NCBI GenBank assembly: GCA_018399015.1
Contig: CP073761.1
Span: forward strand, 1,426,001 to 1,490,000
Length of the DNA: 64,000 nucleotides
Reading direction: 5' to 3'
Source of the DNA: Cyanobium sp. M30B3
GTDB lineage: Bacteria > Cyanobacteriota > Cyanobacteriia > PCC-6307 > Cyanobiaceae
The position numbers and the translations under genes are program-made. Positions 3,691-19,356 of this stretch are shown one piece after another. Within the stretch, counting starts at the first letter, position 1; each line of letters starts with the position of its first letter. The notes below the pieces were generated by a model. That model made no database searches. It was not told the origin of the DNA and saw nothing but the letters and a program-made list of their open reading frames with translations.

Positions 3691-4662
3691 ATGAGCCTCC
3701 CCGCGAGTTTCGGCGCCCCGGCCCGCACCGGCATCCCGCCGCTGGAGGTGCGGCTGCTGCGCAACGGCATCGCCGAATCCAGACACCGGGTGCACGCCGT
3801 GGTGTGCGATGCCCGCGGCCGGGTGCTGATGCGCGCTGGCGATCCCCAGCAGCTGAGCTTCATCCGCTCGGCCCACAAGCCCTTCCAGGCCACGGTGTTC
3901 GTGGCCAGCGGCAGCGCTGACCAATCGGACAGCGGCGACCGGGGGCTGGCGATCGCCTGTGCCTCCCACGCCGGCACGGCCATGCATGCCCGCGAGGCCT
4001 TCCGCCTGCTCTGGGGTGCGGAGCTGGAGGCCGATCAGCTGCAGTGCCCGGTGCCCAGCGGTGGCACCAGCCCCCTGGAGCACAACTGCTCGGGCAAACA
4101 CGCCGCCTTTCTGGCCACCTGCCGCCGGATGGGCTGGAGCAGCGAGGGCTACCTGCAGAGCGACCACCCCCTGCAGCGGGAGGTGCTCAAGCGCACCGGC
4201 GAACTGCTGGGCCTGCCGGCCGCCGAGCTGGTCACCGCCCGCGACGACTGCGGCGCCCCCACCGTGCAGCTGCAGCTGGCCCAGATGGCCCTGCTCTACG
4301 CCCATCTCGGGGCCGGTGAGCAGCCCGATCTCGAGCGGCTCAGCCGGGCCATGCTCAGCCACCCGGATCTGGTGGCCGGAGAGGGGCGCTTCGACACCCA
4401 GCTGATGCGCCTGGGCCACGGCCAGGTGCTGAGCAAGGGCGGAGCCGAGGGCATCCAGTGCCTCAGCCGGGTCGGCGAGGGCATGGGGGTGGCGATCAAG
4501 GTGGAGGACGGCGCCTCCCGCGCCAAGCATGCCGTGGCCCTGCACCTGCTGGAGCAGCTCGACTGGCTGACGCCGATGACCCTGGAGGAGCTGCGCCAGC
4601 AGTTCCTCCAGCCGGCTCCGCACCTGCAGCTGGAGGTGCGGGGCGAACTGCGCTTCGACTGA
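3691..4662 (+). CDS. Asparaginase, PF06089 type
   Basis: Predicted cytoplasmic asparaginase of the family typified by the thermolabile Rhizobium etli enzyme, releasing ammonia from L-asparagine; it is unrelated to E. coli AnsA/AnsB. The 323-residue protein shows the family landmarks: IRSAHKPFQA near residue 55, ACASHAGT near 90, the Ser/Lys/His-containing HNCSGKHAAFLATCR near 130, and a glycine-rich STKGGAEG-like stretch (here LSKGGAEGIQ) near 250. Length is normal. It is the last gene in the run that starts with DUF3318, 34 bp after the CGLD27 gene. A carbamoyl/amide nitrogen block begins just downstream, but the tRNA terminator separates the two. Confidence 0.85.
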   Translation: MSLPASFGAPARTGIPPLEVRLLRNGIAESRHRVHAVVCDARGRVLMRAGDPQQLSFIRSAHKPFQATVFVASGSADQSDSGDRGLAIACASHAGTAMHAREAFRLLWGAELEADQLQCPVPSGGTSPLEHNCSGKHAAFLATCRRMGWSSEGYLQSDHPLQREVLKRTGELLGLPAAELVTARDDCGAPTVQLQLAQMALLYAHLGAGEQPDLERLSRAMLSHPDLVAGEGRFDTQLMRLGHGQVLSKGGAEGIQCLSRVGEGMGVAIKVEDGASRAKHAVALHLLEQLDWLTPMTLEELRQQFLQPAPHLQLEVRGELRFD

Positions 4663-4934: not shown

Positions 4935-5077
4935 GCGAACTGCAAGGGGCCGTGCTGGTTTTCGCCATCGGCGCCCTGGTCACCCTGGCCACCGTGGTGA
5001 TGATCGCGCGGGGACACGCCCGCTGGCACGGCCGCAATCCCTACGACGATCCAACCCAGGCCAGTGCCCATGACTGA
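4931..5077 (+). CDS. Small single-span membrane protein upstream of the symporter
   Basis: A 48-residue protein starting at GTG 4931: one membrane helix (about residues 5-26, LQGAVLVFAIGALVTLATVV), then a basic turn RGHARWHGRNPYDD and a short polar tail. No family is recognised. It overlaps the start of the sodium/solute symporter gene by 8 bp, so the two are almost certainly translated together. Small one-helix partners are known for several transporters (for example KdpF with KdpABC); by analogy, and only by inference, this may be a subunit or stability factor of the symporter. Confidence 0.6.
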   Translation: MSELQGAVLVFAIGALVTLATVVMIARGHARWHGRNPYDDPTQASAHD

Positions 5078-6497
5078 CGCCGCTGCGCCCCTGCTGAATC
5101 CCGGCACCGCCTGGTTTCTGCTGGTGGCCTTCTCCGGGTTGTGGATCGCCCTCGGGGTGTGGTGGGGTCGCCGCGGCACGGGGGATGCTGACGACTACCT
5201 CCTGGCCGGCCGCAACATCGGCCTGGCCCTGAGCACCGCCACCCTGATGGCCAGCTGGGTGACGGGCAACACCACCCTGGCGGCCCCGGAAGTGGGCTAC
5301 ACCCTGGGGCTCTGGGGGATGCTGGGCTACTCCCTGGCGGGCCTGGGGCTGTTTCTGTTCGCGCCGCTGGCCATCCGGATCAAGCGACTGATGCCCCGGG
5401 GCCGCACCAGCGGCGACTTCGTGCGCCTGCGCTACGGCCGGCTGTGCTGGGGGATTTTCCTGCTGATCACCATGGCCTACACCCTGGGGTTCCTGATCAC
5501 CCAGGGCATGGGGGCCGGACTGGTGCTGCAGGCCCTCTCCGGCTTCGACTACCGGCTGGGGATGGTGGCCGTGATCGCCGTGTCGACCATCTACACCCTG
5601 TTCGGCGGCATGCGGGCGGTGGTGGGCACCGATTTCATCCAGTCGCTGCTGATCATGGCGCTGCTGGCCCTGGTGGCGGTGCTGGGCTACAGCCGCTTCA
5701 GCGTGGATGCCGTGTACGTCGCCCTTGCCAGCGACCACCCCTCGCGGCTCAACCTGCTGCTGCCCACCGGCCTGCTGTTCGCCTGGAACACCGGCCTGTT
5801 CAGCATGGGCGAGGTGTTTCACAACAACATCTGGTGGAGCCGGGTGTTCGCCAGCCGGCCCTCGGTGGTGTTCCGCTCCTTCGTGCTGGGCGGCCTGGCC
5901 TGGACCGCCGTCCCGATCGTCACCGGCGCGATCGCCCTGATGGCCCTGGCCCAGCAGCTGGAGATCCCCCAGGTGAACATGGTGTTCCCGCTCGTCACCG
6001 CCCAGCTGCTGGGCAGTGGCGGCGCGGCTGTGGTGTTCGTGATCATCTTCGCCTCACTCACCTCCACCCTCGATTCCCTGCTGGCCGCCAGCGCCGATCT
6101 GATCGCCGAGGACGTGGTGGCCCACTGGCTCCTGCCCGGGGCCAGCGACGCCCAGATCCGCCAGGCCGCCCGCCTGGTGGTGGTGGGGCTGGGGCTGCTC
6201 ACCATGGCCCTCTCCTGGCGGTACGTCACCTCGATGTACCAGCTGTTGCTGTTCACCGGGGCGCTGGTGGCCTCCACCATCTGGCCGATCGCCATGGGGC
6301 TCTACTGGCCCCAGGCCAACCGCCATGGGGCCAGTGCAGCCATGGCGGTTGGATCGATCACCGGCCTGCTCGCCTATTGGCTGATCGCGCCCTACTGCGC
6401 TGCCCTGGTGTCTGCCGCGGTGTCGGCTGTGGTGATGGGGCTGAGCAGCCTCTGGCGGCCGGAACGCTTCAACTGGCGGCTGCTGGCAGAGCGCTGA
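5070..6497 (+). CDS. Sodium/solute symporter, urea-type (Dur3-like)
   Basis: A 475-residue transporter of the SSS family with about 13 membrane helices, using the sodium gradient to import a small solute. Features visible: DDYLLAGRNIG after the first helix, the sodium-site region ASWVTGNTTLAAPEVGY, and the loop IKRLMPRGRTSGDFVRLRYG. That loop resembles the corresponding IK..AP.AHT...I..RYG segment of urea/polyamine (Dur3) symporters more than those of proline or glucose carriers. GGMRAVVGTDFIQ and SLTSTLDSLLAASADLI are general SSS signatures. ATG 5070 (MTDAAAP) is preferred over an in-frame GTG at 5064. Two small membrane proteins flank it, and a carbamoyltransferase/amidotransferase pair follows. 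The substrate is inferred (urea, ureide or amide), not shown. Confidence 0.85.
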   Translation: MTDAAAPLLNPGTAWFLLVAFSGLWIALGVWWGRRGTGDADDYLLAGRNIGLALSTATLMASWVTGNTTLAAPEVGYTLGLWGMLGYSLAGLGLFLFAPLAIRIKRLMPRGRTSGDFVRLRYGRLCWGIFLLITMAYTLGFLITQGMGAGLVLQALSGFDYRLGMVAVIAVSTIYTLFGGMRAVVGTDFIQSLLIMALLALVAVLGYSRFSVDAVYVALASDHPSRLNLLLPTGLLFAWNTGLFSMGEVFHNNIWWSRVFASRPSVVFRSFVLGGLAWTAVPIVTGAIALMALAQQLEIPQVNMVFPLVTAQLLGSGGAAVVFVIIFASLTSTLDSLLAASADLIAEDVVAHWLLPGASDAQIRQAARLVVVGLGLLTMALSWRYVTSMYQLLLFTGALVASTIWPIAMGLYWPQANRHGASAAMAVGSITGLLAYWLIAPYCAALVSAAVSAVVMGLSSLWRPERFNWRLLAER

Positions 6498-6875: not shown

Positions 6876-7982
6876 GTGTCCGTCTGCCAGCCCGTGTCCC
6901 GCCAGCCAACCATCCGTTTCGACCGCCTGGGCCCTGATGTCTACGGCAATGCGCACCCCCAGGCCCTGTTGCAGGCCATCCAGGAGGAGGGGGAAGCGCT
7001 GCTCGATCTGGCCAACCAGCACGTGATCTCCACGCTGCAGTACAGCCCGGCAACCCTGCTGCAGCTGTTCCGGCTGGCGGCCAAGTACGAGAGCAATCCC
7101 AACCGCTACATCCGCCACAACAGCCCGCTGCGGGGCAAGATCCTGATCAACGCCTTCTACGAGCCGAGCACCCGCACGCGACTGTCCTTCGACAGCGCCT
7201 GGCACCGGCTCGGCGGCGACACGATCACCATCACCGACCGCAGCACCACGGGCCTGGCCAAGGGGGAATCGCTGCAGGACGTGGCCGAGATGTTCAACAA
7301 CTATGGCGACTGCGTGGTGCTGCGCGACACCCACGCCGAGGCCATCCACGCGATGACCAGCTCGCTGCACATCCCGATCATCAATGCCGGCAATGGCATC
7401 GATGAACATCCCACCCAGGCCATGGCCGACCTGTACACGATCTTCAAGTGGCGGCCCCAACTGGTGAAGGCGATCGTGAACCCGGAGGAGCGGATCCGCA
7501 TCGGCGTGGTGGGTGTTCCAGGCCGGATGCGAACGGTGCGCTCGCTGCTGCGCATCCTCGCCAAGTTCCCGGCCATGGTGGAGGAGCTGGTGCTCTTCCA
7601 CGAGCCCGGCGTGGACCCCGCCGAGGGCTATTGGGATCCAGGGCAGCGGGAGGAACTGGAGGCCGCGGGCCTGAAGCTGAGCACCAGCGACAACCTGCAG
7701 GCTGCCATCCCCCACCTCGATGTGATCTACATCAATGCGATCGCCTGGGTGGGCGACAGCTACGAGGTGCACGGCGGAGGCTTCCGGCTCACCGCCGACC
7801 TGCCCTACAAGCGTGGTGCGATCGTGCTCCACCCCCTTGCACGGGGCCGGGAGCTGGACACCAGCCTGGATCGCACCGATCACAACTGGTACTTCTCCCA
7901 GGCCCGCGGAGCTGTGTTCGTGCGCATGGCCCTGCTCACCTGCATGGTGGAACGCACCGCCCAGGTGATGGACATCATCTAG
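6876..7982 (+). CDS. Aspartate/ornithine carbamoyltransferase superfamily protein, substrate unknown
   Basis: A 368-residue homologue of aspartate carbamoyltransferase catalytic chains. The carbamoyl-phosphate site is intact: EPSTRTRLSF near residue 96, GLAKGESLQD near 128, and HPTQAMADLYTI near 178. In the second domain, however, the aspartate-binding motif RVQKER is absent: the matching strand reads DVIYINAIAWVGD (about residues 281-293). The HPLPR loop is HPLARGREL. The enzyme therefore probably moves a carbamoyl group to or from something other than aspartate. It is also longer than PyrB (~310). The start is GTG at 6876; GTG at 6894 is an alternative. An AsnB-like gene follows 132 bp later on the same strand. 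Confidence 0.8.
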   Translation: MSVCQPVSRQPTIRFDRLGPDVYGNAHPQALLQAIQEEGEALLDLANQHVISTLQYSPATLLQLFRLAAKYESNPNRYIRHNSPLRGKILINAFYEPSTRTRLSFDSAWHRLGGDTITITDRSTTGLAKGESLQDVAEMFNNYGDCVVLRDTHAEAIHAMTSSLHIPIINAGNGIDEHPTQAMADLYTIFKWRPQLVKAIVNPEERIRIGVVGVPGRMRTVRSLLRILAKFPAMVEELVLFHEPGVDPAEGYWDPGQREELEAAGLKLSTSDNLQAAIPHLDVIYINAIAWVGDSYEVHGGGFRLTADLPYKRGAIVLHPLARGRELDTSLDRTDHNWYFSQARGAVFVRMALLTCMVERTAQVMDII

Positions 7983-8114: not shown

Positions 8115-10184
8115 ATGTGTGGAATCGGCGGCATCTTCCATCGCCAGGCCGAGCGGCCGATCGATGAACAGCTGCTGGTGAACATGGCGGCCATCCAGGT
8201 ACACCGCGGCCCCGACGGCTTCGGCGTGCGCAGCCTGCCGGGGCAGGGCGTGGGCTTCTGCCATGCCCGCCTGTCGATCATCGACCTGGACGCCAACCGC
8301 GGCCGCCAGCCGTTCGTGTCCGAGGACGGCGAGCTGCTGATGGCCCACAACGGCGAGTTCTACGACTTCCAGCGCATCCGCGCCGATCTCACCGCCCGGG
8401 GGGTGCGCTTCAGCAGCAAGAGTGATTCCGAGATCCTGCTGCGCCTCTACCAGGAGCAGGGGCTGGAGGCCACCCTGCCCCTGCTGCGCGGCGAGTTCGC
8501 CTTCGCCCTGTTCAACCGCCAGAGCGACACGCTGGTGCTGGTGCGCGACCGCTTCGGCGTCAAACCCCAGTACTGGACCCTCACCGACGAGGGCCTGGTG
8601 TTCGGCTCCGAACTCAAGGTGCTGTTCGCCCACCCCGGCGTGCCGCGCCGCTTCAGCTCCCAGGGGCTGTTCCACCAGCTGATGCAGACGGTGGTGCCGG
8701 GCACCACCGCCTTCGAGGGGGTGCACCAGCTGCTGCCGGGCCACGTGCTCACGGTGCGCCGCCGGGGCGGCGCGTTCGAGATCAGTGATCGGGCCTACTG
8801 GGACGTGAACTTCCCCCGCCAGGGGGAGCGCGACGGCAACCTCAGCGAGAGCGACCACATCGAGGCCGTGCGCGCCGCCCTGCTGGAGGCGGTGGAGGTG
8901 CGCATGGTGGCCGACGTGCCGGTGGGCTGCTACCTCTCCGGCGGCATCGACTCCTGCTCGATCCTGGGGCTGGCGGCGGCGGTGAGCCAGAACCCGGTGC
9001 GGGCGTTCACGATCGGCTTCGACGACGCCCGCTACGACGAGACGCCGATCGCCACCGAGATGGCCGAGGCCACCGGCGCCGAGCAACTGGTGATGCGGCT
9101 CTCCGGCGACGAGCTCTACGGCCACCTGGAGGACACCATCTGGCACACCGAGCGCAGCATCTACAACACCCTGGCGGTGGCCAAGTTCCTGATGAGCCGG
9201 GAGGTGAACCGCGCCCACTACAAGGTGGTGATGACCGGCGAGGGCTCCGACGAACTGTTCGGCGGCTACCCGGCCTTCCGCCGCGACATGTTCCTGCACG
9301 GCCTCGACGACCTGCCGGCGGCCGAGCGCCAGGAGTGGGAGCAGCTGCTGCAGCAGGCCAACGCCCTGGTGCAGGGGGCGATGCTGGCCGAGGAGCAGGT
9401 GCACGACCCTGCCCTGGAGGCGGTGGTGGGCTTCACCCCCAGCTGCCTGCAGCCCTGGCTGGCCTGCGCGCCGCTGGTGCCCGATCTGCTGGCCCCCGAA
9501 CACCGCCGGGCCTGCGCCGGCTACGCCCCCGGCGCCGCCATCGCCGCCAGCCTCGATCCGCAACAGCTGGAGGGCCGTCACGCCCTCGACCGGGCCCAGT
9601 ACGTGTGGATCAAGACCATGCTCGAGGGCCAGATCCTCACCTGGGGCGGCGACCGGGTGGACATGGCCCACGCCATGGAGGCCCGCCCCGCCTTCCTCGA
9701 CCACCACCTGGCCGCGGTGGCGGTGCAGGTGCCGCCGGAGCTGCGCATCAAGGGCAAAACCGAGAAGTACGTGCTGCGCGAGGCCATGCGCGGCCTGCTG
9801 CCGGAGGTGCTCTACAAGCGGGAGAAGTTCGCCTTCATGGCACCGCCTGCCCACGCCGATGCCGAGAAGCGCTCCGCCATGCAGGCCCTGGCGGACCGCT
9901 ACCTCAGCCCGGAGACGATCGCCGCGGCCGGGCTGCTCGATCCGGCCGGGGTGGCCGCTCTGTTCGAGCGCCACGACCACCCGGACACCAGCGCCGCCCA
10001 GCGGGTGCAGCTGGACGCCATCATCAACCACCTGATCTGCGTGCAGATCATGCACAGGCTGTTCGTGGCTGCCGACATCCCCAGCCAGGCCCGGCGCAGG
10101 GCCGATGCCCTGGGCTGGCAGCTGCACCACGAGAACGAGGCCGAGCCGGCCTACGCCCGGATCGGCATGTCCCCTGTGGCGTGA
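8115..10184 (+). CDS. Asparagine synthetase-like glutamine amidotransferase
   Basis: A 689-residue AsnB-family enzyme. The N-terminal class II glutaminase domain begins MCGIGGIF with the catalytic Cys2, then RLSIIDL, NGEFYDF and KSDSEILL. The synthetase domain has the PP-loop SGGIDSCS near residue 280 and GEGSDELFGGY near 376. Such enzymes adenylate a carboxylate and transfer glutamine-derived ammonia to it. At 689 residues it is ~130 longer than E. coli AsnB, like the members that act in secondary or modified amino acid pathways, so the acceptor need not be aspartate. It sits between a divergent carbamoyltransferase and a DUF1028 gene, whose 3' end it overlaps by 34 bp. Confidence 0.87.
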   Translation: MCGIGGIFHRQAERPIDEQLLVNMAAIQVHRGPDGFGVRSLPGQGVGFCHARLSIIDLDANRGRQPFVSEDGELLMAHNGEFYDFQRIRADLTARGVRFSSKSDSEILLRLYQEQGLEATLPLLRGEFAFALFNRQSDTLVLVRDRFGVKPQYWTLTDEGLVFGSELKVLFAHPGVPRRFSSQGLFHQLMQTVVPGTTAFEGVHQLLPGHVLTVRRRGGAFEISDRAYWDVNFPRQGERDGNLSESDHIEAVRAALLEAVEVRMVADVPVGCYLSGGIDSCSILGLAAAVSQNPVRAFTIGFDDARYDETPIATEMAEATGAEQLVMRLSGDELYGHLEDTIWHTERSIYNTLAVAKFLMSREVNRAHYKVVMTGEGSDELFGGYPAFRRDMFLHGLDDLPAAERQEWEQLLQQANALVQGAMLAEEQVHDPALEAVVGFTPSCLQPWLACAPLVPDLLAPEHRRACAGYAPGAAIAASLDPQQLEGRHALDRAQYVWIKTMLEGQILTWGGDRVDMAHAMEARPAFLDHHLAAVAVQVPPELRIKGKTEKYVLREAMRGLLPEVLYKREKFAFMAPPAHADAEKRSAMQALADRYLSPETIAAAGLLDPAGVAALFERHDHPDTSAAQRVQLDAIINHLICVQIMHRLFVAADIPSQARRRADALGWQLHHENEAEPAYARIGMSPVA

Positions 10185-10876
10185 GGGCTCACCGGATGGG
10201 CGGCGCCAAAGCTGGAGGGCAGGCCGGCTCGGAAGTCGGTGTAGTAGGGGCGGCTGGTCTCGGCCAGGATCTCCCGCAGGGCCACCAGGGGTTCGGGGTG
10301 GTGGTCCACGCGGAAGTCGATCTGGGGATAGACCTCCCGGTCCATCACCAGCAGGGCGGCCGACTGGCGGCCGCGGTGATCGCCTCCGTGGGCCTCACCG
10401 GCTTCCAGGGCCCGCAGCAGGCGCTCCTCGAGGGCCAACCCCTCCCGCTCGGCGGCCATGTAGGCCTCCGCCATGGCCAGCAGCACCAGATCGGAAGCCA
10501 GGAAGTTGCCGGCCACCGAGAAGCCGGGATAGCAGCGGTGGGCGGCGATCCCGGCACAGTTCACGCCGGTCCATGCGGCGCTGCGTCCCTGGGCGTCCAC
10601 CAGATGCACCTGGCGGCCATCCCGGCCAGGATCGTCGCGCAGCAGCGAGGCCAGCACCTGCTCGGCCCCCTGCTCCCCGGCACTCTGGCGCTGCAGCTGT
10701 TCCAGACGATCCAGGCCCCAGGGGCCGAAATAGGGATTGGTGTTGGCCTGGGTGGCCACCGCTCCCACCCCAGCCCGGGCGTGGGGCACGAGTGAACCAA
10801 CGGCCAGATGCTTGGTGGCCACTGCAACACCGGTCTGGGCAGTCTGCCGATCCCAGGCCACGATCGAGTAGGTCAT
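10151..10876 (-). CDS. DUF1028 family protein (Ntn-hydrolase fold)
   Basis: A 241-residue DUF1028 protein, a family with the N-terminal-nucleophile hydrolase fold. The start MTYSIVAWD followed by TGVAVATKHLAVGSLVPHARAG is typical, as is TQANTNPYFGPWGLD. Family members occur near hydantoinase and amino-acid-amidohydrolase genes, but no reaction is firmly assigned. Here it is divergent from a carbamoylase-type hydrolase, sharing a 157-bp promoter region with a palindrome, and its 3' end overlaps that of the AsnB-like gene by 34 bp. The context supports a role in breaking or editing an amide or carbamoyl compound; this is inference. Confidence 0.85.
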   Translation of the reverse strand: MTYSIVAWDRQTAQTGVAVATKHLAVGSLVPHARAGVGAVATQANTNPYFGPWGLDRLEQLQRQSAGEQGAEQVLASLLRDDPGRDGRQVHLVDAQGRSAAWTGVNCAGIAAHRCYPGFSVAGNFLASDLVLLAMAEAYMAAEREGLALEERLLRALEAGEAHGGDHRGRQSAALLVMDREVYPQIDFRVDHHPEPLVALREILAETSRPYYTDFRAGLPSSFGAAHPVSPHATGDMPIRA

Positions 10877-11033: not shown

Positions 11034-12338
11034 ATGACCCAGCCCGAAGCCCGCACCAGCACCCCATCGGCAGTTGCGGCCCTGGCCTCAGCTGGGGGCG
11101 CTGAGCCATTGCTGGCCGATGCCCAGCGCCTGGAGAGCCAGCTCGAGGCCCTCTCCCGGATCGGCCGTCTGGCCTCGGGCGCCGTCCGGCGCCTCGCTTT
11201 CAGCGACGAGGACCGGGCCGCCCGCGCCCAGGTGCGCCAGTGGATGGAGGAGCTGGGCATGGCAGTGCGCATCGATGCCGCCGGCAACCTGATCGGTCGC
11301 TACGAGGGCCTGAACCCGACCTTGCCGGTGCTGGCCACCGGCTCCCACATCGACACCGTGCCCGAGGGGGGGCGCTACGACGGAGCCCTGGGGGTTGTGG
11401 GGGCACTGGAGGGGGTGCGCCTTCTGGCCGAGAGGGGACTGCGGCTGCGCCACCCCCTGGAGGTGATCGTGTTCGCCGATGAGGAGAGCACGATGGTGGG
11501 CTGCAAGAGCATGGTGGGCCGGGCCGATCCCGATCCCACCAGCTACACCACCGCCGGTGGCCGGCCGATCCAGGAGTGCCTGGCCAGCATCGGCGGTGAC
11601 TGGGAACGGCGCGCCAGCGCCCAGCGCCGGCCCGAGGAGATTGCCGCCTTCCTGGAGCTGCACGTGGAACAGGGGGGAGTGCTGGAGGCGGTGGACCGGC
11701 AGATCGGGGTGGTGGAGGGGGTGGTGGGCCAGCAGCGCTACAGCCTGAGTGTGAGCGGTCAGGCCAACCACGCTGGCACCACGCCGATGGCCATGCGCCG
11801 CGACGCCCTCACCACCGCAGCCCGGATCATCCTGGCGATCGAGGATCTGGCCCAGCATTTCCCAGGGGATCCAGTGGCCACAGTGGGCAAGCTGCAGCTG
11901 TGGCCCAATGCGGCCAACATCGTGCCCGGACGGGTGGAATTCACCCTCGATATGCGCGATCTGTCCCATGCCGTGATCGACCAGATGCGCGCCCAGCTGG
12001 AACGGAAAATGGAAACCATTGCCGTCGCCAGCCGCAACCGCATCACCATCACGCCCCAGTTCGTGGTGGATCCCAGTCCCGCTGATCCACGCCTGCAAGC
12101 AGTGATCAGCGACGTCTGCCTGCAGCTGGGGCTCACTGCCACGCACCTCCCGAGCCGTGCCAGCCATGACGCCCAGGAGATGGGGCGGCTCACCGCCATG
12201 GGCATGATTTTCGTGCCGAGCCGAGGTGGCGTCTCGCACTCGGCCGACGAGTACACCTCCCCGGCGGAGTGCGCCCAGGGGGTGTCCGTGCTGCTCCACA
12301 GTCTGCTGCGGCTGGATGACCAGTTCGCCACCAGCTGA
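11034..12338 (+). CDS. Zn-dependent hydrolase of the carbamoylase / allantoate amidohydrolase family
   Basis: A 434-residue M20-type metallo-enzyme of the HyuC/AllC/PydC group, which cleaves N-carbamoyl amino acids, allantoate or ureidoglycolate to ammonia, CO2 and the free acid. Metal ligands and signatures are visible: TGSHIDTVPEGGRYDG (His, Asp) near residues 102-117, FADEESTMVGCKSM (Glu pair) near 148, ELHVEQGGVLE near 205, NHAGTTPMAMRRDAL near 244, and the C-terminal RASHDAQEM and GGVSHSADEY near 382-404. The unconserved first ~25 residues suggest the true start could be internal, but ATG 11034 has no strong rival. A receiver gene follows after 9 bp. The natural substrate is not determinable from sequence. 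Confidence 0.88.
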   Translation: MTQPEARTSTPSAVAALASAGGAEPLLADAQRLESQLEALSRIGRLASGAVRRLAFSDEDRAARAQVRQWMEELGMAVRIDAAGNLIGRYEGLNPTLPVLATGSHIDTVPEGGRYDGALGVVGALEGVRLLAERGLRLRHPLEVIVFADEESTMVGCKSMVGRADPDPTSYTTAGGRPIQECLASIGGDWERRASAQRRPEEIAAFLELHVEQGGVLEAVDRQIGVVEGVVGQQRYSLSVSGQANHAGTTPMAMRRDALTTAARIILAIEDLAQHFPGDPVATVGKLQLWPNAANIVPGRVEFTLDMRDLSHAVIDQMRAQLERKMETIAVASRNRITITPQFVVDPSPADPRLQAVISDVCLQLGLTATHLPSRASHDAQEMGRLTAMGMIFVPSRGGVSHSADEYTSPAECAQGVSVLLHSLLRLDDQFATS

Positions 12339-12347
12339 GGTGTTGCC

Positions 12348-12722
12348 ATGCTGAGCTGCGTGCTGGTTGAGGATGAACCCCTGTTGCGCGACCTGCTCAC
12401 GGAAGTGCTGCAGACCCATCCCGCCACCCGCATGCTCGGCAGTGTGGGCACCGTGGCCGAAGCCATCGCCCTGTGTGGCCAGCAAGCCCCGGACCTGCTG
12501 GTGCTGGACCTGAACCTGCCGGATGGCAACGGACTGGATGTGGCCCTGGCGGTGACGGCCCAGCGGGCTGACACCCAGGTGATCGTGCTCTCCGCCGAGG
12601 CCGGCTGTTTTGTCTGTCCGCAGGAACTGAGGCCGCTGCTGCGCGGGGTGATCGACAAGATCCACGCCTACGAGGCCCTGCCGGCGGAGATCGATGAAAT
12701 CCTGGCGGGGGCTCGGCCATGA
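12348..12722 (+). CDS. Single-domain response regulator (receiver only)
   Basis: A 124-residue receiver (REC) domain with no output domain. The acidic pocket E8-D9, phospho-acceptor D54 (LVLDLNLPDG), S82 and K104 are all in place. Start MLSCVLVEDEP. It follows the carbamoylase gene by 9 bp and overlaps the next gene (exported binding protein) in ATGA, so it is part of the same operon as that protein and the histidine kinase. Without a DNA-binding domain it may act by protein contact or as a phosphate relay, with transcription handled by another partner. Confidence 0.88.
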   Translation: MLSCVLVEDEPLLRDLLTEVLQTHPATRMLGSVGTVAEAIALCGQQAPDLLVLDLNLPDGNGLDVALAVTAQRADTQVIVLSAEAGCFVCPQELRPLLRGVIDKIHAYEALPAEIDEILAGARP

Positions 12723-13879
12723 GCTCCGCGCCCCCAGGCCAACAACCCACCATGCCCCCTGCTGGCGATCGCCACCTGATGCCAGGGCTGCCCCTGGCGC
12801 TGCGCTCCCGTCGCCGCCTGGCCCTGGGGCTCAGTGCCCTGGCCGCCACCGGCCTGGGCCTGGGGATCTGGCAGCGGCTGCAACCGGTGAAGGTGGCTGT
12901 TGGCGTGGATCGACCCCTGGTGTACGGGGCGGCCATCGATCCCACCGACCTCAACACCGCCCAGCACTACCTGGAGCAGAACCAGGACAGCCCGATCCGG
13001 CTGGAGACGATGTTCAACAGTGCCGATCCTCGCCAGGGCCGCGCCGATCTCAAGGCCGTGCGGGATCAGGGGGTGCGCTTCATCATCAACACCCAGACCT
13101 CCAGCCATGCCATACCAACCCTCGATCTCTACGACGACGGCCAGGTGCTGGCCATCAACGTGTCCGCCACCAGCACGGCGCTGAGTGGACGTGATGACCA
13201 CTTCCTGCGCATCATTCCCGACCTGGCCCAGGAGCAACGGGCCATCGCCACCCGCATCAACCAGATGGCGGGCAAGCGCCTGCTGGTGATGCGCGACACC
13301 CGCAATTTTCGTTACACCGAACCGGCGCTTGCCCAATTCCTCCAAGCCCTGCAGGCTGAGCGCGATTGGCAGGTCACGGTGCGCAGCTTTCGGACGGATC
13401 GCTTCGACCCCAGAAGGGAACAGGCTGTGCTCAGCCAGCCCTATGATGTTCTCTACATCTTAGGTGGTGACTTTCTGCCCACCATGGGCAACCTTGCCCA
13501 GCAGTTTCACCTGGCCAATCCCACGGCGCCGATCATGCTCACCCCCTGGGCCAATTCGCCGGCTGTGCTGGAAAATGCCGGCGATGCCCGGCAGATGGTC
13601 CTGATCGCCAGCCCCTATCCCGACCGCCGCACCAAACCGGCCCTGGCTCGTTACTTCAGCAGCCATGAGGAGCGCTTCGGCTATCAGCCCTATGCCATGG
13701 GCGTCGGCACCCGTCAGGCGATGGAGCTGCTGGATCAGGCCTTTCGCAGGGGCCACCGCACCCCATCCGCCGTCAGGCGCTACCTGCTCGCAGGCCAGCC
13801 GCACCGCACCAGCCTGGGCCCGATTCAGTTCAGCAGCAGCGGCGATGTGAACAGCACCTATCACTTCCTGAGGCCTTGA
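12719..13879 (+). CDS. Exported periplasmic ligand-binding protein, sensor partner
   Basis: A 386-residue protein with an N-terminal export signal: RSRRRLALGLSALAATGLGLG at about residues 30-50, with an arginine cluster that could serve Sec or Tat. The mature part has the layout of type I periplasmic binding proteins (LivJ/UrtA-like): VAVGVDRPLVYGAAIDP near 56, alternating strand-helix units, AVRDQGVRFIINTQTSSHA, and LYILGGDFLPTM. Several internal ATGs (12751, 12779) could be the true start. It lies between a receiver and a histidine kinase with 4-bp overlaps or less and no permease genes, so it probably presents a ligand to the kinase rather than to a transporter, as TorT does for TorS. Confidence 0.75.
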   Translation: MSSAPPGQQPTMPPAGDRHLMPGLPLALRSRRRLALGLSALAATGLGLGIWQRLQPVKVAVGVDRPLVYGAAIDPTDLNTAQHYLEQNQDSPIRLETMFNSADPRQGRADLKAVRDQGVRFIINTQTSSHAIPTLDLYDDGQVLAINVSATSTALSGRDDHFLRIIPDLAQEQRAIATRINQMAGKRLLVMRDTRNFRYTEPALAQFLQALQAERDWQVTVRSFRTDRFDPRREQAVLSQPYDVLYILGGDFLPTMGNLAQQFHLANPTAPIMLTPWANSPAVLENAGDARQMVLIASPYPDRRTKPALARYFSSHEERFGYQPYAMGVGTRQAMELLDQAFRRGHRTPSAVRRYLLAGQPHRTSLGPIQFSSSGDVNSTYHFLRP

Positions 13880-13881
13880 GG

Positions 13882-15765
13882 GTGAAGCGGCCGATCAGCT
13901 TCTGGCGCTACTGCCTCGGCCAGGAGCTGGTGGCCTTGTCGGTGGCCCTGGGCGTGCTGGGCAGCGTCAGCTGGCTGGCCCTCAGGGAGGTGAACCGCCG
14001 TTACATCAACCTGCACCGTGCCGATGCCGACCGCGTGCAGCTGCTGCTGCAGGAGCATGTGGGCGAAGCGATGGAGCGGTTCCGGTTGTTCCGCAACCTG
14101 GACGAAGAGGCGCACACCGAGGCGGCCAGCTATTTGATGGAGAGCTTTTCCGATATCTATCACCTGGACCACGAGCTGAGAGTGGTGAAGATCCATAAGC
14201 AAATACCTGGCAGCCGTGTTTTCGAGGGTTTTTCCTTCTCCGGTAGCAAAGTTGCCAGCCACCTGCAGCGCACTCAACTGCAGCACACTCATCTGCAGCA
14301 CAGCCACCTGCAGCACAGCCACCGACAGGACCTGCTCGCCAACAACAGCGCACAGGGCGATTCGGCCTTCCAGCCTTCACCCATCATCCGTGCCGCAGAG
14401 GACGAAGTCGCCAGCATCTATCTTGGCCTTTCCGGCCAATCGGAAAACACCATCTTACTGGGACGGCTAAATCTTTCCTACATTCAGGATTTCCTGCATC
14501 GGTTCGCCGCGATCAGCGGCACTCCCCTGCTGTTGGTGAACAACGACGGCCAGGTGATGCTCTCCAGCAATCGCGACCTGCCGATTGCAACCATTGATCT
14601 GGGAGCGGCGCTCAAGGAGGACCTGCCCAGGCCGATCCAGCTGGGGCCAACGCGCTGGTTACCGGTTGCGGGCAGCAGTGGTGAACTGGGCAGCTCCTTC
14701 ATCACCCTGGTGCCGACGCGTCCGATGGAGCAATACCAGCAGGTGCTGGGGATCGCATCGCTGGCGGTGTCTCTGTTGCTGGTGCTGATCTTCATCCTCA
14801 AGGCCCAGCGGCTGCACACCAATCTGTTCAACCCCGTGCGCACCTTCGCCGACCAGCTGCGCCTGGTGGAGAGCGGCCACGCCCCCGGCGAGGGACCGGA
14901 AACGCCCCAGCAGCAGCACCTGGCCGTCGCCGGAGAACGGTTCCTGGAAATCCGCCTGATCCAGGAGCGCTTTGCGGCGATGGTGGCGGCCATCCAGCAA
15001 CGGGAGAGCGAACTGCGTCAGGCCCTGCGCGCCAGCCTGGCTGCCGCCGCCGTGGGGCACGAGATCAAACAGCCCCTGAGCACCATCCGGCTGCTCTGCC
15101 AGCAGGCCAACCGCAGCGACCACGCTGCGGGACTGCGGCCCCTGCTCTCCCAGCTCGACAGGGAGTCGGGCCGGGTGGCCACCACCGTGGAGAGCATGCG
15201 CATGCTGCTCAGCAACGTGCAGAGCAACCAGGAGCCGCTCAATCTGGCGGACGCGGCCAGCAATGCCATCGCCTTCACCCACCACCAGCGCCGCTCACTC
15301 GGCGTTGTGTTCCGGGCCGAGGGGGTGAACGGTCTGCCCCTGGACGACTCCCCCCTGCCGGTGATCGGTGATCCCGTGCAGTTGCAGATCGCCATCGGCA
15401 ACCTGCTGCGCAATGGGGCGGAGGCGGCCGCCACCATGGCGCCGGAGCGGCGGCTGCTGCGGCTGCGGCTGCAGCGACTGCCAGCCAGCGCCGAACATCC
15501 CCATGGCCTGGCCGGCCTGGAAGTGGCGGACAGCGGTCCTGGCCTTCCCGGGCTGGATGGCAGCGGGGGCGGCGACCATCCCGGCAGGGAGCTGGGCCGC
15601 CAACCCCTGCACACCACCAAGGCCCACGGCAGCGGCCTGGGGCTGTTCGTGGTGCGCACCACCCTGGAGCAGCACGGCGGCTGGCTGCAGGCCGGGCGCT
15701 CCGCCGAGCTGGGTGGTGCGGCGGTGAGCCTGTGGTTGCCGCTGCGGCCGCCGCACGAGGCCTAG
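13882..15765 (+). CDS. Membrane sensor histidine kinase
   Basis: A 627-residue two-transmembrane sensor kinase. An N-terminal helix (about residues 12-34) and a second one near 288-308 (SLAVSLLLVLIFIL) enclose a ~250-residue periplasmic sensor domain. A HAMP-like linker, the phospho-acceptor box GHEIKQPLSTI (His ~393), the N box GNLLRNGAEAA (~505) and GSGLGLF (~584) follow. The periplasmic domain contains a 4 x 5-residue repeat (LQHTH/LQHSH) encoded by a 15-bp tandem duplication. The start is GTG 13882, with GAGG eight bases upstream; a TTG at 13876 overlapping the previous stop is possible. Partners are presumably the two preceding genes. Confidence 0.88.
   Translation: MKRPISFWRYCLGQELVALSVALGVLGSVSWLALREVNRRYINLHRADADRVQLLLQEHVGEAMERFRLFRNLDEEAHTEAASYLMESFSDIYHLDHELRVVKIHKQIPGSRVFEGFSFSGSKVASHLQRTQLQHTHLQHSHLQHSHRQDLLANNSAQGDSAFQPSPIIRAAEDEVASIYLGLSGQSENTILLGRLNLSYIQDFLHRFAAISGTPLLLVNNDGQVMLSSNRDLPIATIDLGAALKEDLPRPIQLGPTRWLPVAGSSGELGSSFITLVPTRPMEQYQQVLGIASLAVSLLLVLIFILKAQRLHTNLFNPVRTFADQLRLVESGHAPGEGPETPQQQHLAVAGERFLEIRLIQERFAAMVAAIQQRESELRQALRASLAAAAVGHEIKQPLSTIRLLCQQANRSDHAAGLRPLLSQLDRESGRVATTVESMRMLLSNVQSNQEPLNLADAASNAIAFTHHQRRSLGVVFRAEGVNGLPLDDSPLPVIGDPVQLQIAIGNLLRNGAEAAATMAPERRLLRLRLQRLPASAEHPHGLAGLEVADSGPGLPGLDGSGGGDHPGRELGRQPLHTTKAHGSGLGLFVVRTTLEQHGGWLQAGRSAELGGAAVSLWLPLRPPHEA
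14263..14322. repeat. In-frame tandem repeat, 4 x 15 bp, in the kinase sensor domain
   Basis: Four 15-bp units starting CTGCAGC; the last two are identical (CTGCAGCACAGCCAC). They encode LQRTQ-LQHTH-LQHSH-LQHSH, placing six histidines in 20 residues of the periplasmic domain. Copy-number change would keep the frame. Confidence 0.92.
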
Positions 15766-18193: not shown

Positions 18194-19291
18194 TCAGGCC
18201 CCGGCGGGACGCCGCAGGCTGCGGGGGCCCAGGGGATGGTCGGCCTGGGGATAGGGCGGATGATGGCTGTGACCGTGGCCATGGTCATGGTCATGGCTGT
18301 GGCCGTGCCCGAGGGGAATCGGCACGCCATCGGGCTGGCAGGCCCCGGTGCATTCGCGCTCGCAGAGGCTGCAGCTCTCGGTGAGCCCCTCCACGTGGTG
18401 GTGGTGGCTGTGCTGGGGGGCGCCCACCTCGGTTTCAAAGCCCAGCACCTGGGCCCGGTATTTGCACAGGGAACAGTTCATCTGGGTGTCGCCACGCACC
18501 ACCTCAGCCACCCGCTCGGCGAAGGTGTCCAGCACCTGGGGATGGTCGCCCAGGTAGGGCACCGGCAGGAACTGCAGCTCGGGATGGTCGGCCGCCACCA
18601 GCTCGGTGTGCTGGCGGATGCGGCTCACCAGCACCCCTGAAAACAGAAAGTAAGGAAACACGAGAATGCGGCGGAAGCCCAGGCGCACCGCGTGGCGCAG
18701 GCCGGGTTCCACCAGCGGGAAGGTGACGCCGGAGTACACCGTCTCCCCCCAGCCGAAGCCCATGCCCTCCACCAGCATGCGGGTGACCTTGGCCACGTTG
18801 GAGTTGGCGTCCGGGTCGGACGAGCCCCGGCCCACCACCACCAGCAGGGTGTCGTGCAGGGGCACGGCTGCCTGCCGGTCGGCCTGCTCCAGGGTCTGGC
18901 GGATCCGGGCCCCCGCTGCCTGGATCATCTTGAGATCCACCCCCAGCTCCCGGCCGTAGTCCACCCGCAGGCCGGTCTCGGCGGCGTAGGTGTTGAGCAC
19001 CGAGGGGATGTCGTTCTTGGCGTGACCGGCGGCGAACAGCATCGCCGGAATCGCCAGGATGTGACGCACGCCCCGCTGGCGCAGGGCCTCCAGCCCATCG
19101 CGCAGGATCGGCCGGGCGAATTCCAGGTAGCCGTGCTCCACCGGCAGGGGGGCGAGGCGCTGTCGCAGGGCCGCCGACAGCTGGGCGAACTCCTCCACCG
19201 CCAGGCGGTTGCGGCTGCCGTGGCCGCAGATCAACACGCCGATCGGCCCATGGTCCCCAAGCAGCGGAGCGGGAGTGACTGAGGTCTGCAT
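18194..19291 (-). CDS. cbiX: Sirohydrochlorin chelatase, CbiX/SirB type, with His-rich tail
   Basis: Inserts cobalt (or iron) into sirohydrochlorin for cobalamin or siroheme synthesis. The 365-residue protein has the duplicated chelatase fold: ICGHGSRN near residue 22, HILAIPAMLFAAGHAKNDIP with the metal-site His, and in the second half VVGRGSSDPDANSN and RRILVFPYFLFSGVL. The C-terminus adds the MXCXXC motif (MNCSLCKYR), a second cysteine group CSLCERECTGAC and a tail with many HGH/HDHD repeats. In long CbiX proteins such an MXCXXC segment carries an Fe-S cluster, and His-rich regions are thought to hold metal. ATG 19291 is preferred over TTG 19297. Single gene, divergent from the ParB-like gene. 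Confidence 0.87.
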   Translation of the reverse strand: MQTSVTPAPLLGDHGPIGVLICGHGSRNRLAVEEFAQLSAALRQRLAPLPVEHGYLEFARPILRDGLEALRQRGVRHILAIPAMLFAAGHAKNDIPSVLNTYAAETGLRVDYGRELGVDLKMIQAAGARIRQTLEQADRQAAVPLHDTLLVVVGRGSSDPDANSNVAKVTRMLVEGMGFGWGETVYSGVTFPLVEPGLRHAVRLGFRRILVFPYFLFSGVLVSRIRQHTELVAADHPELQFLPVPYLGDHPQVLDTFAERVAEVVRGDTQMNCSLCKYRAQVLGFETEVGAPQHSHHHHVEGLTESCSLCERECTGACQPDGVPIPLGHGHSHDHDHGHGHSHHPPYPQADHPLGPRSLRRPAGA

Positions 19292-19356
19292 GGGCAACGG
19301 CTGACCACCCGACCCTATCTGCCGCGACCCATGCCGCTCCGGGCGAGGATGGATGT

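Follow-up and report, generated by a model that had tools for sequence, protein, structure and literature searches.

The carbamoyltransferase (CT) analyzed here is almost certainly a real, conserved enzyme of its kind and not an aspartate carbamoyltransferase (ATCase), and it very likely works together with the amidotransferase encoded beside it in making a compatible solute. Our analysis suggests that the two enzymes probably form a pathway that converts glutamine to CGA, a salt-protecting compatible solute composed of glutamine with a carbamoyl group and an amide group added. We infer what the enzymes do, that glutamine is the substrate, which product forms and in which order the steps run from the genes, the active-site residues, the gene order and the distribution of the genes. 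In a wider form, which on balance we also favor, CGA would be a widespread solute of euryhaline picocyanobacteria, Idiomarinaceae, Kangiella, Alteromonas-type bacteria and Ectothiorhodospiraceae, with a new carbamoyltransferase, a dedicated amidotransferase and two recycling hydrolases, one of them a DUF1028 protein; that cyanobacteria and the other carriers contain it is a prediction. The features discussed are collected in Table 1, with positions given in the window, that is, the whole stretch of 64,000 nucleotides that was analyzed.

Table 1. Genes and active-site features of the proposed solute cluster (positions in the window; residue counts are out of 81 sequences)
Feature	Position	Strand	Basis
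CT, proposed carbamoyl-phosphate:L-glutamine N-alpha-carbamoyltransferase	6876..7982	+	PF02729/PF00185; residues; AlphaFold2 model with ATCase fold
STRTR, carbamoyl-phosphate site, residues 98-102	7167..7181	+	STRT in 81/81
AKGES loop with Lys84 equivalent K129	7257..7271	+	Lys in 81/81
HPTQ, residues 178-181	7407..7418	+	His and Gln in 81/81
Arg167 equivalent R219, expected alpha-carboxylate ligand	7530..7532	+	81/81; role from PMC4581275 (available part)
INAIAWVG replacing the ATCase 240s-loop stretch with RVQKER, residues 286-293	7731..7754	+	R229 and Q231 replaced by small residues in 81/81
HPLARG replacing HPLPR, residues 319-324	7830..7847	+	P268 is Ala in 81/81
AsnB-type glutamine-dependent amidotransferase, proposed amidation of the 1-carboxylate of N-carbamoyl-glutamine	8115..10184	+	PF00733 and GATase
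Sodium:solute symporter (SSS family), proposed uptake or retrieval of solute or precursor	5064..6497	+	PF00474
M20 hydantoinase/carbamoylase-type hydrolase, proposed carbamoyl-group removal	11034..12338	+	TIGR01879 and NF006771 over cut-off
DUF1028 protein, proposed second hydrolase (1-amide)	10151..10876	-	PF06267
Asparaginase II-type protein, upstream of symporter, doubtful member	3691..4662	+	PF06089; only 5/18 Cyanobiaceae regions

The CT open reading frame starts with GTG and encodes 368 amino acids. Its match to the carbamoyl-phosphate domain (PF02729, E 5e-41) is stronger than that to the Asp/Orn domain (PF00185, E 1.8e-12), and its score lies under the cut-off of all 17 NCBIfam models that it matched. 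It reaches 189 bits with the ATCase model TIGR00670 (cut-off 237) and 91.5 bits with the ornithine carbamoyltransferase (OTCase, ArgF) model TIGR00658 (cut-off 281), and at the loop the SMG of the DxxxSMG motif is absent. The putrescine, YgeW and N-acetylornithine carbamoyltransferases have carbamoyl-phosphate chemistry in common with CT, but CT scores far under their cut-offs (71 bits against 500, 26 against 500 for TIGR03316 and 36.5 against 288 for NF003384, respectively), so that the other named carbamoyltransferases were rejected as its identity. The source genome, a single contig of 3.18 Mb, has three PF02729 genes, namely CT, an ornithine-type enzyme (ArgF; 37% to E. coli ArgI) and a PyrB that contains the RLQKER motif (31% to E. 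coli PyrB). Since these two enzymes exist elsewhere in the genome, CT can be regarded as a third paralogue without a housekeeping duty; its residues and the separate PyrB led us to reject it as the housekeeping ATCase. A plasmid collection was of no help here, as the 225 records matched were all below 60% identity and, among the 20 matches listed, the annotated ones were PyrB-like.

Active-site residues were counted in 81 sequences, the window CT and 80 relatives (the best 80 of 149 from a search of GTDB species contigs), with the numbering of E. coli PyrB. The alignment with E. coli PyrB shows that CT retains STRTR, the AKGE lysine, Arg105, HPTQ and Arg167, and that RVQKER is changed to AIAWVG and HPLPR to HPLAR. 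This confirms what an earlier note on this DNA had read from the window, that STRTR, the AKGES loop and HPTQ are kept and that the RVQKER and HPLPR stretches are replaced, and extends it to the whole set. Ser52, Thr53, Arg54, Thr55, Lys84, Arg105, His134, Gln137 and Arg167 are invariant (81/81). The position of Arg229 is occupied by Ala (72), Ser (8) or Thr (1), that of Gln231 by Ala (46), Ser (32), Val (2) or Thr (1), that of Lys232 by Trp (80) or Pro (1), and that of Pro268 by Ala in every sequence. Because all 80 relatives share these losses with the window CT, the loss of the aspartate side-chain residues is a conserved family trait and not decay.

The transcarbamylase superfamily motif Fx(E/K/N/D/A/Q)xSxRT, as given in the available part of PMC4581275, is found in CT as FYEPSTRT and the superfamily HPxQ motif as HPTQ, while the HxLP motif is replaced by HPLA. 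The RxQxER motif of the ATCase 240s loop is missing from the family, with R229 and Q231 absent in 81/81. Neither of the putrescine carbamoyltransferase motifs, the loop (Y/W)(G/W)(V/L/I)x and FxQxSxRT, is present, the corresponding CT stretches being NAIAWVG and FYEPSTRT. Ureidoglycine transcarbamylase (UGTCase) resembles CT as an ATCase-branch enzyme with an altered acceptor (PMC4581275, available part), and differs from it by H(T/S)LP, where the CT family has HPLA (81/81).

In ATCase, Arg229 and Gln231 anchor the beta-carboxylate of aspartate (PMC4581275, available part). Judging by the residues, CT has lost the half of the aspartate site that binds the side-chain carboxylate and retains the half for the alpha-carboxylate (Arg167 and Lys84). 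The earlier description of an intact carbamoyl-phosphate site and a lost aspartate site therefore holds for the former and for the side-chain half of the latter, and fails for the alpha-carboxylate half; the absence of R229 and Q231 throughout the family makes a strong case against aspartate as the second substrate. As the alpha-carboxylate ligands are kept and the side-chain-carboxylate ligands are gone, the acceptor is predicted to be an amino acid with a non-acidic side chain.

The structure prediction that the earlier note had asked for gave an AlphaFold2 model of CT (pLDDT 84.6, pTM 0.87) with the ATCase fold. In each structural comparison all 50 matches listed were ATCases (for the 50 listed from the PDB, Z 31.5-34.5 and 28-35% identity), and the model also matches 1EZZ, the crystallised P268A mutant of the E. 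coli enzyme. CT thus shares with PyrB the fold, STRT, Lys84, Arg105, HPTQ and Arg167, and differs from it in having no RxQxER, in HPLA instead of HPLP, in an extra conserved N-terminal stretch of ~45 residues and in its operon. One divergent gammaproteobacterial homologue (L179:3860-4939, genome G321; 42% over the query) has VNRT and NPSQ instead of STRT and HPTQ and no adjoining amidotransferase; from its sequence it is perhaps a catalytically dead or repurposed carbamoyltransferase.

The neighboring amidotransferase was analyzed in a set from which matches shorter than 500 residues were left out and 7 of 95 with stops in the translated stretch were dropped. Cys1, R49, N74 and D98, which we take to be the glutaminase residues of AsnB, are kept in 87/87, and glutamine should therefore be the source of the ammonia that the enzyme transfers. 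In the TTIR stretch of E. coli AsnB, Thr322 and Arg325 are presumably aspartate-binding; the first position is Asn in 87/87 and the second is Gly (64) or Ala (23). The layout of a glutaminase plus a synthetase is common to this protein, AsnB and the N-acetylglutaminylglutamine amidotransferase TIGR03104, which presumably amidates the end of another glutamine-based osmolyte. It differs from AsnB in the replacement of Arg325 in 87/87 neighbors, and from the TIGR03104 enzyme in scoring under that cut-off (309 bits against 570). It passes the asparagine synthase model TIGR01536 (417 bits against 267), which may not separate this subfamily, and it is the only strong one of the four PF00733 matches in the genome (the others have 22-33 bits).

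The gene order is highly conserved. The symporter, CT and the amidotransferase follow each other in this order on one strand in 80/80 named loci, including L027, in which the amidotransferase is partly masked but begins right after CT. CT and the amidotransferase are adjacent in 19/19 Cyanobiaceae flanks and in 21/24 gammaproteobacterial flanks, the other three being two contig edges and the divergent L130; the named-loci, Cyanobiaceae and gammaproteobacterial sets overlap by a few genomes. The symporter, CT, amidotransferase, M20 carbamoylase and DUF1028 genes are all present in 18/18 Cyanobiaceae regions, which represent 18 of the 21 other CT carriers found. Among the named loci an M20 match occurs in 40/80 (called as an open reading frame in 36), with half lacking it, and DUF1028 in 3/80, all three cyanobacteria. 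The best score of the window M20 protein is with NF058540 (N-carbamyl-L-glutamate amidohydrolase ErtE), but under its cut-off, and NF006771, which it passes, is the allantoate amidohydrolase subfamily model. A search of the open literature found no paper that pairs a carbamoyltransferase with DUF1028 and none that mentions DUF1028.

Several other genes were seen around the cluster. A small protein, by eye exported and membrane-anchored, lies just before the symporter in 60 named loci (e.g., L028:7889-8422 and L039:8014-8445); neither Pfam nor NCBIfam had a match for that of L039 or for a similar gene in L102. A MarR regulator is found somewhere within the 21-kb locus in 34 named loci and in a few adjoins the M20 carbamoylase, as in the alphaproteobacterial loci L083 (6022-6567) and L103 (6043-6513). 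These proteins gave general MarR matches only, and such a regulator may regulate the solute genes. Downstream of the cluster in the window (12348-15765) a stand-alone response regulator, a periplasmic binding protein and a histidine kinase lie in a row; they were left out as a cluster regulator, as they occur in 0/80 named loci and 0/18 Cyanobiaceae regions. Further on, the list of open reading frames has one on the minus strand (18194-19297) that resembles a CbiX-type chelatase and carries a run rich in histidine close to its end.

CGA was reportedly described in 1991, from a purple bacterium. It is accumulated by Ectothiorhodospira marismortui, and the charges of the amino and carboxyl groups are hidden by the modifications that it carries (PMC1224877, available part). 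In 2013 it was listed among the solutes of one organism only, E. marismortui extracts gave no CGA signal by Raman and CGA was called a minor solute (PMC3857566, available part). A survey that looked for osmolyte pathways in phototroph genomes gives CGA, sucrose and N-acetylglutaminylglutamine amide as solutes of other purple sulfur bacteria and as candidates where pathways were unrecognised (PMC7824335, available part). The available parts of these three papers (PMC1224877, PMC3857566 and PMC7824335) name no genes for CGA, and no gene assignment was found in the open literature, a search that does not cover most subscription papers.

In a sample of 369 gammaproteobacterial genomes, CT was found in 24, including the central genome of the sample and one divergent homologue. 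Six of the 369 are phototrophs, four of them without CT, and purple-bacterial reaction-centre genes occur in 2 of the 24 carriers (G480 and G264). These two belong to a genus with 10 genomes, all of which have CT (10/10) with the amidotransferase adjoining it (10/10) and all of which have a HiPIP (10/10). The HiPIP of another member, G533, is identical over 71/71 residues to PDB 1HPI, whose source we take to be Ectothiorhodospira vacuolata. Because of the reaction-centre genes and this identity the genus was taken as Ectothiorhodospira; when the reaction-centre M chain was compared with the PDB, the nearest solved chains did not name a genus. In one member (G534, L173:7654-8657) the CT is split over two frames, by either a real mutation or a sequencing error. 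The Ectothiorhodospira CTs are 59-62% identical to the window CT and fall with it in one family clade of the CT tree. This tree leaves out L024, L034, L107, L128, L129, L130 and rows with stops; as its outgroup branches reach or nearly reach the length limit, we use it solely to show that the family holds together. Since CT is family-wide, being found in 41/47 genomes of the Ectothiorhodospira family, its link to the CGA producer is real but not species-specific.

The operon order in Ectothiorhodospira is M20 carbamoylase, isochorismatase-like hydrolase (PF00857), CT and amidotransferase, and no symporter was found near CT in the 10 regions (16-18 kb each). PF00857 was present in 17/98 sequences searched, those of Ectothiorhodospira and several others. 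On one side of the pair there is a sucrose synthase (10/10) and on the other, at a varying distance, a pfkB-type sugar kinase (9/10). Directly after the amidotransferase an MscS-type mechanosensitive channel is intact in 3/10 and left as a remnant of ~60 residues in 2/10. Sucrose is listed among the solutes of such bacteria (PMC7824335, available part) and MscS channels release solutes when salt drops (PMC10893183, available part); the sucrose synthase and the MscS channel near the pair give independent support for an osmotic role.

A mechanism that fits these data is that CT would first carbamoylate L-glutamine at its alpha-amine, with carbamoyl phosphate as the donor. The small residues at the positions of Arg229 and Gln231 would leave room for a longer neutral side chain, with Arg167 and Lys84 holding the alpha-carboxylate. 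In the second step the asparagine-synthetase-like enzyme would amidate the 1-carboxylate with ammonia taken from glutamine, at the expense of ATP, and the resulting CGA would have no net charge, as suits a compatible solute. This chemistry, predicted for the pair, is that of the CGA of Ectothiorhodospira, where the pair is found in 10/10 genomes of the genus, with one CT frameshifted. Uptake or retrieval of the solute, or of its precursor, is the probable task of the symporter. When salt drops, the M20 carbamoylase and a second hydrolase, which would be DUF1028 in cyanobacteria and PF00857 in Ectothiorhodospira and some others, probably remove both groups. As CGA carries two additions, two hydrolases are needed to undo them, and that the second hydrolase varies while the count stays at two appears to match this prediction. 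The recycling part is weakened, in our view, by the M20 match missing in half of the named loci and by the window M20 protein passing the allantoate amidohydrolase subfamily model.

Some points speak against CGA as the product. The match to the producer is at the family level (41/47) and could be a coincidence. In E. marismortui CGA is a minor solute without a Raman signal (PMC3857566, available part), and ectoine synthase is present in two of the eight carriers tested, Nitrosomonas halophila and Pseudidiomarina aestuarii (it was not found in the other six). The frameshifted CT of G534 and the lack of a symporter near CT in the Ectothiorhodospira regions also count against it. Asparagine synthesis could be the role of the amidotransferase, which scores over the asparagine synthase cut-off in a genome where no other PF00733 match is strong.

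Another option is that the acceptor differs, so that the product is a carbamoylated and amidated derivative of glutamate, asparagine, a dipeptide or another amine and still a compatible solute. The residues would allow it, since they specify only an alpha-carboxylate and a non-acidic side chain, and the open literature, as far as the texts were available, gave no record of CGA in cyanobacteria, Idiomarina or Kangiella. We consider it unlikely because the recorded solute with such chemistry comes from Ectothiorhodospira, whose CTs belong to the same clade at 59-62% identity. The earlier note had proposed either a new N-carbamoyl product or phosphorolysis to recover carbamoyl phosphate. The first fits our data, and the gene context and the Ectothiorhodospira link point to carbamoyl-glutamine as that product.

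The second would make the cluster a catabolic module, in which the symporter imports an N-carbamoyl compound, CT phosphorolysis yields carbamoyl phosphate and the hydrolases finish the degradation. The M20 carbamoylase nearby (40/80 named loci and 18/18 Cyanobiaceae regions) and the existence of catabolic transcarbamylases (PMC4581275, available part) could fit such a process. Yet the constant partner of CT is an ATP-using glutamine amidotransferase with intact glutaminase residues, which is a synthetic enzyme; the M20 match is missing in 40/80 loci; no carbamate kinase was evident by inspection, as opposed to a model search, among the conserved neighbors; and the adjoining hydrolytic carbamoylase would compete with phosphorolysis, as it would free the carbamoyl group without making carbamoyl phosphate. 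We find this quite improbable. That the pair is a drifted extra ATCase and asparagine synthetase of housekeeping nitrogen metabolism is hardly credible, for although the fold is that of ATCases, which are also the nearest sequence relatives, and the neighbor passes the asparagine synthase model as the only strong PF00733 match in the genome, R229 and Q231 are absent in 81/81, PyrB (RLQKER) and ArgF are encoded elsewhere in the genome, AsnB Arg325 is Gly or Ala in 87/87 and CT occurs in only 22/151 Cyanobiaceae.

If the pathway from glutamine to CGA is correct, it gives genes to an orphan osmolyte described in 1991, adds a new acceptor to the transcarbamylase family and provides a function for a DUF1028 protein. 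It would also suggest how salt-tolerant groups such as Pseudidiomarina cope with salt, and a nitrogen-rich solute with four nitrogens per molecule may serve as a currency between marine cyanobacteria and heterotrophs. Annotation of CT and the amidotransferase as plain PyrB and AsnB should then be avoided.

The distribution of CT is in line with a role in salt habitats, in that the named carriers are mostly marine or halophilic. Among the best 80 of 149 there are three Cyanobium, Aphanocapsa feldmannii, many Idiomarinaceae, Kangiella, Pleionea, Alteromonas, Pseudoalteromonas, Kordiimonas, Hyphomicrobiales and Nitrosomonas halophila, and named relatives that include Cyanobium sp. M55B138 (93%) and ATX 6A2 (82%) put the source genome with the Cyanobium-like picocyanobacteria. 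In the Cyanobiaceae, glucosylglycerol-phosphate synthase is over its cut-off in 62/151 genomes; counted per genome, it occurs in 20/22 CT carriers against 42/129 others (p 2e-7). Per genus the contrast is not significant (7/9 against 27/50, p 0.28), and the link is therefore given little weight. Pseudidiomarina terrestris, which carries the operon (L067), grows at 0.5-17% salt, no ectoine or betaine synthesis was found in it and its authors could not deduce the osmoadaptation strategy from the genome (PMC10893183, available part). Kangiella, which carries the CT operon as well, was reported without an ectoine operon (PMC6000758, available part). In the CT tree the sequence from the ammonia oxidiser Nitrosomonas halophila (L097) groups with Alteromonadaceae, which suggests horizontal transfer of the operon.
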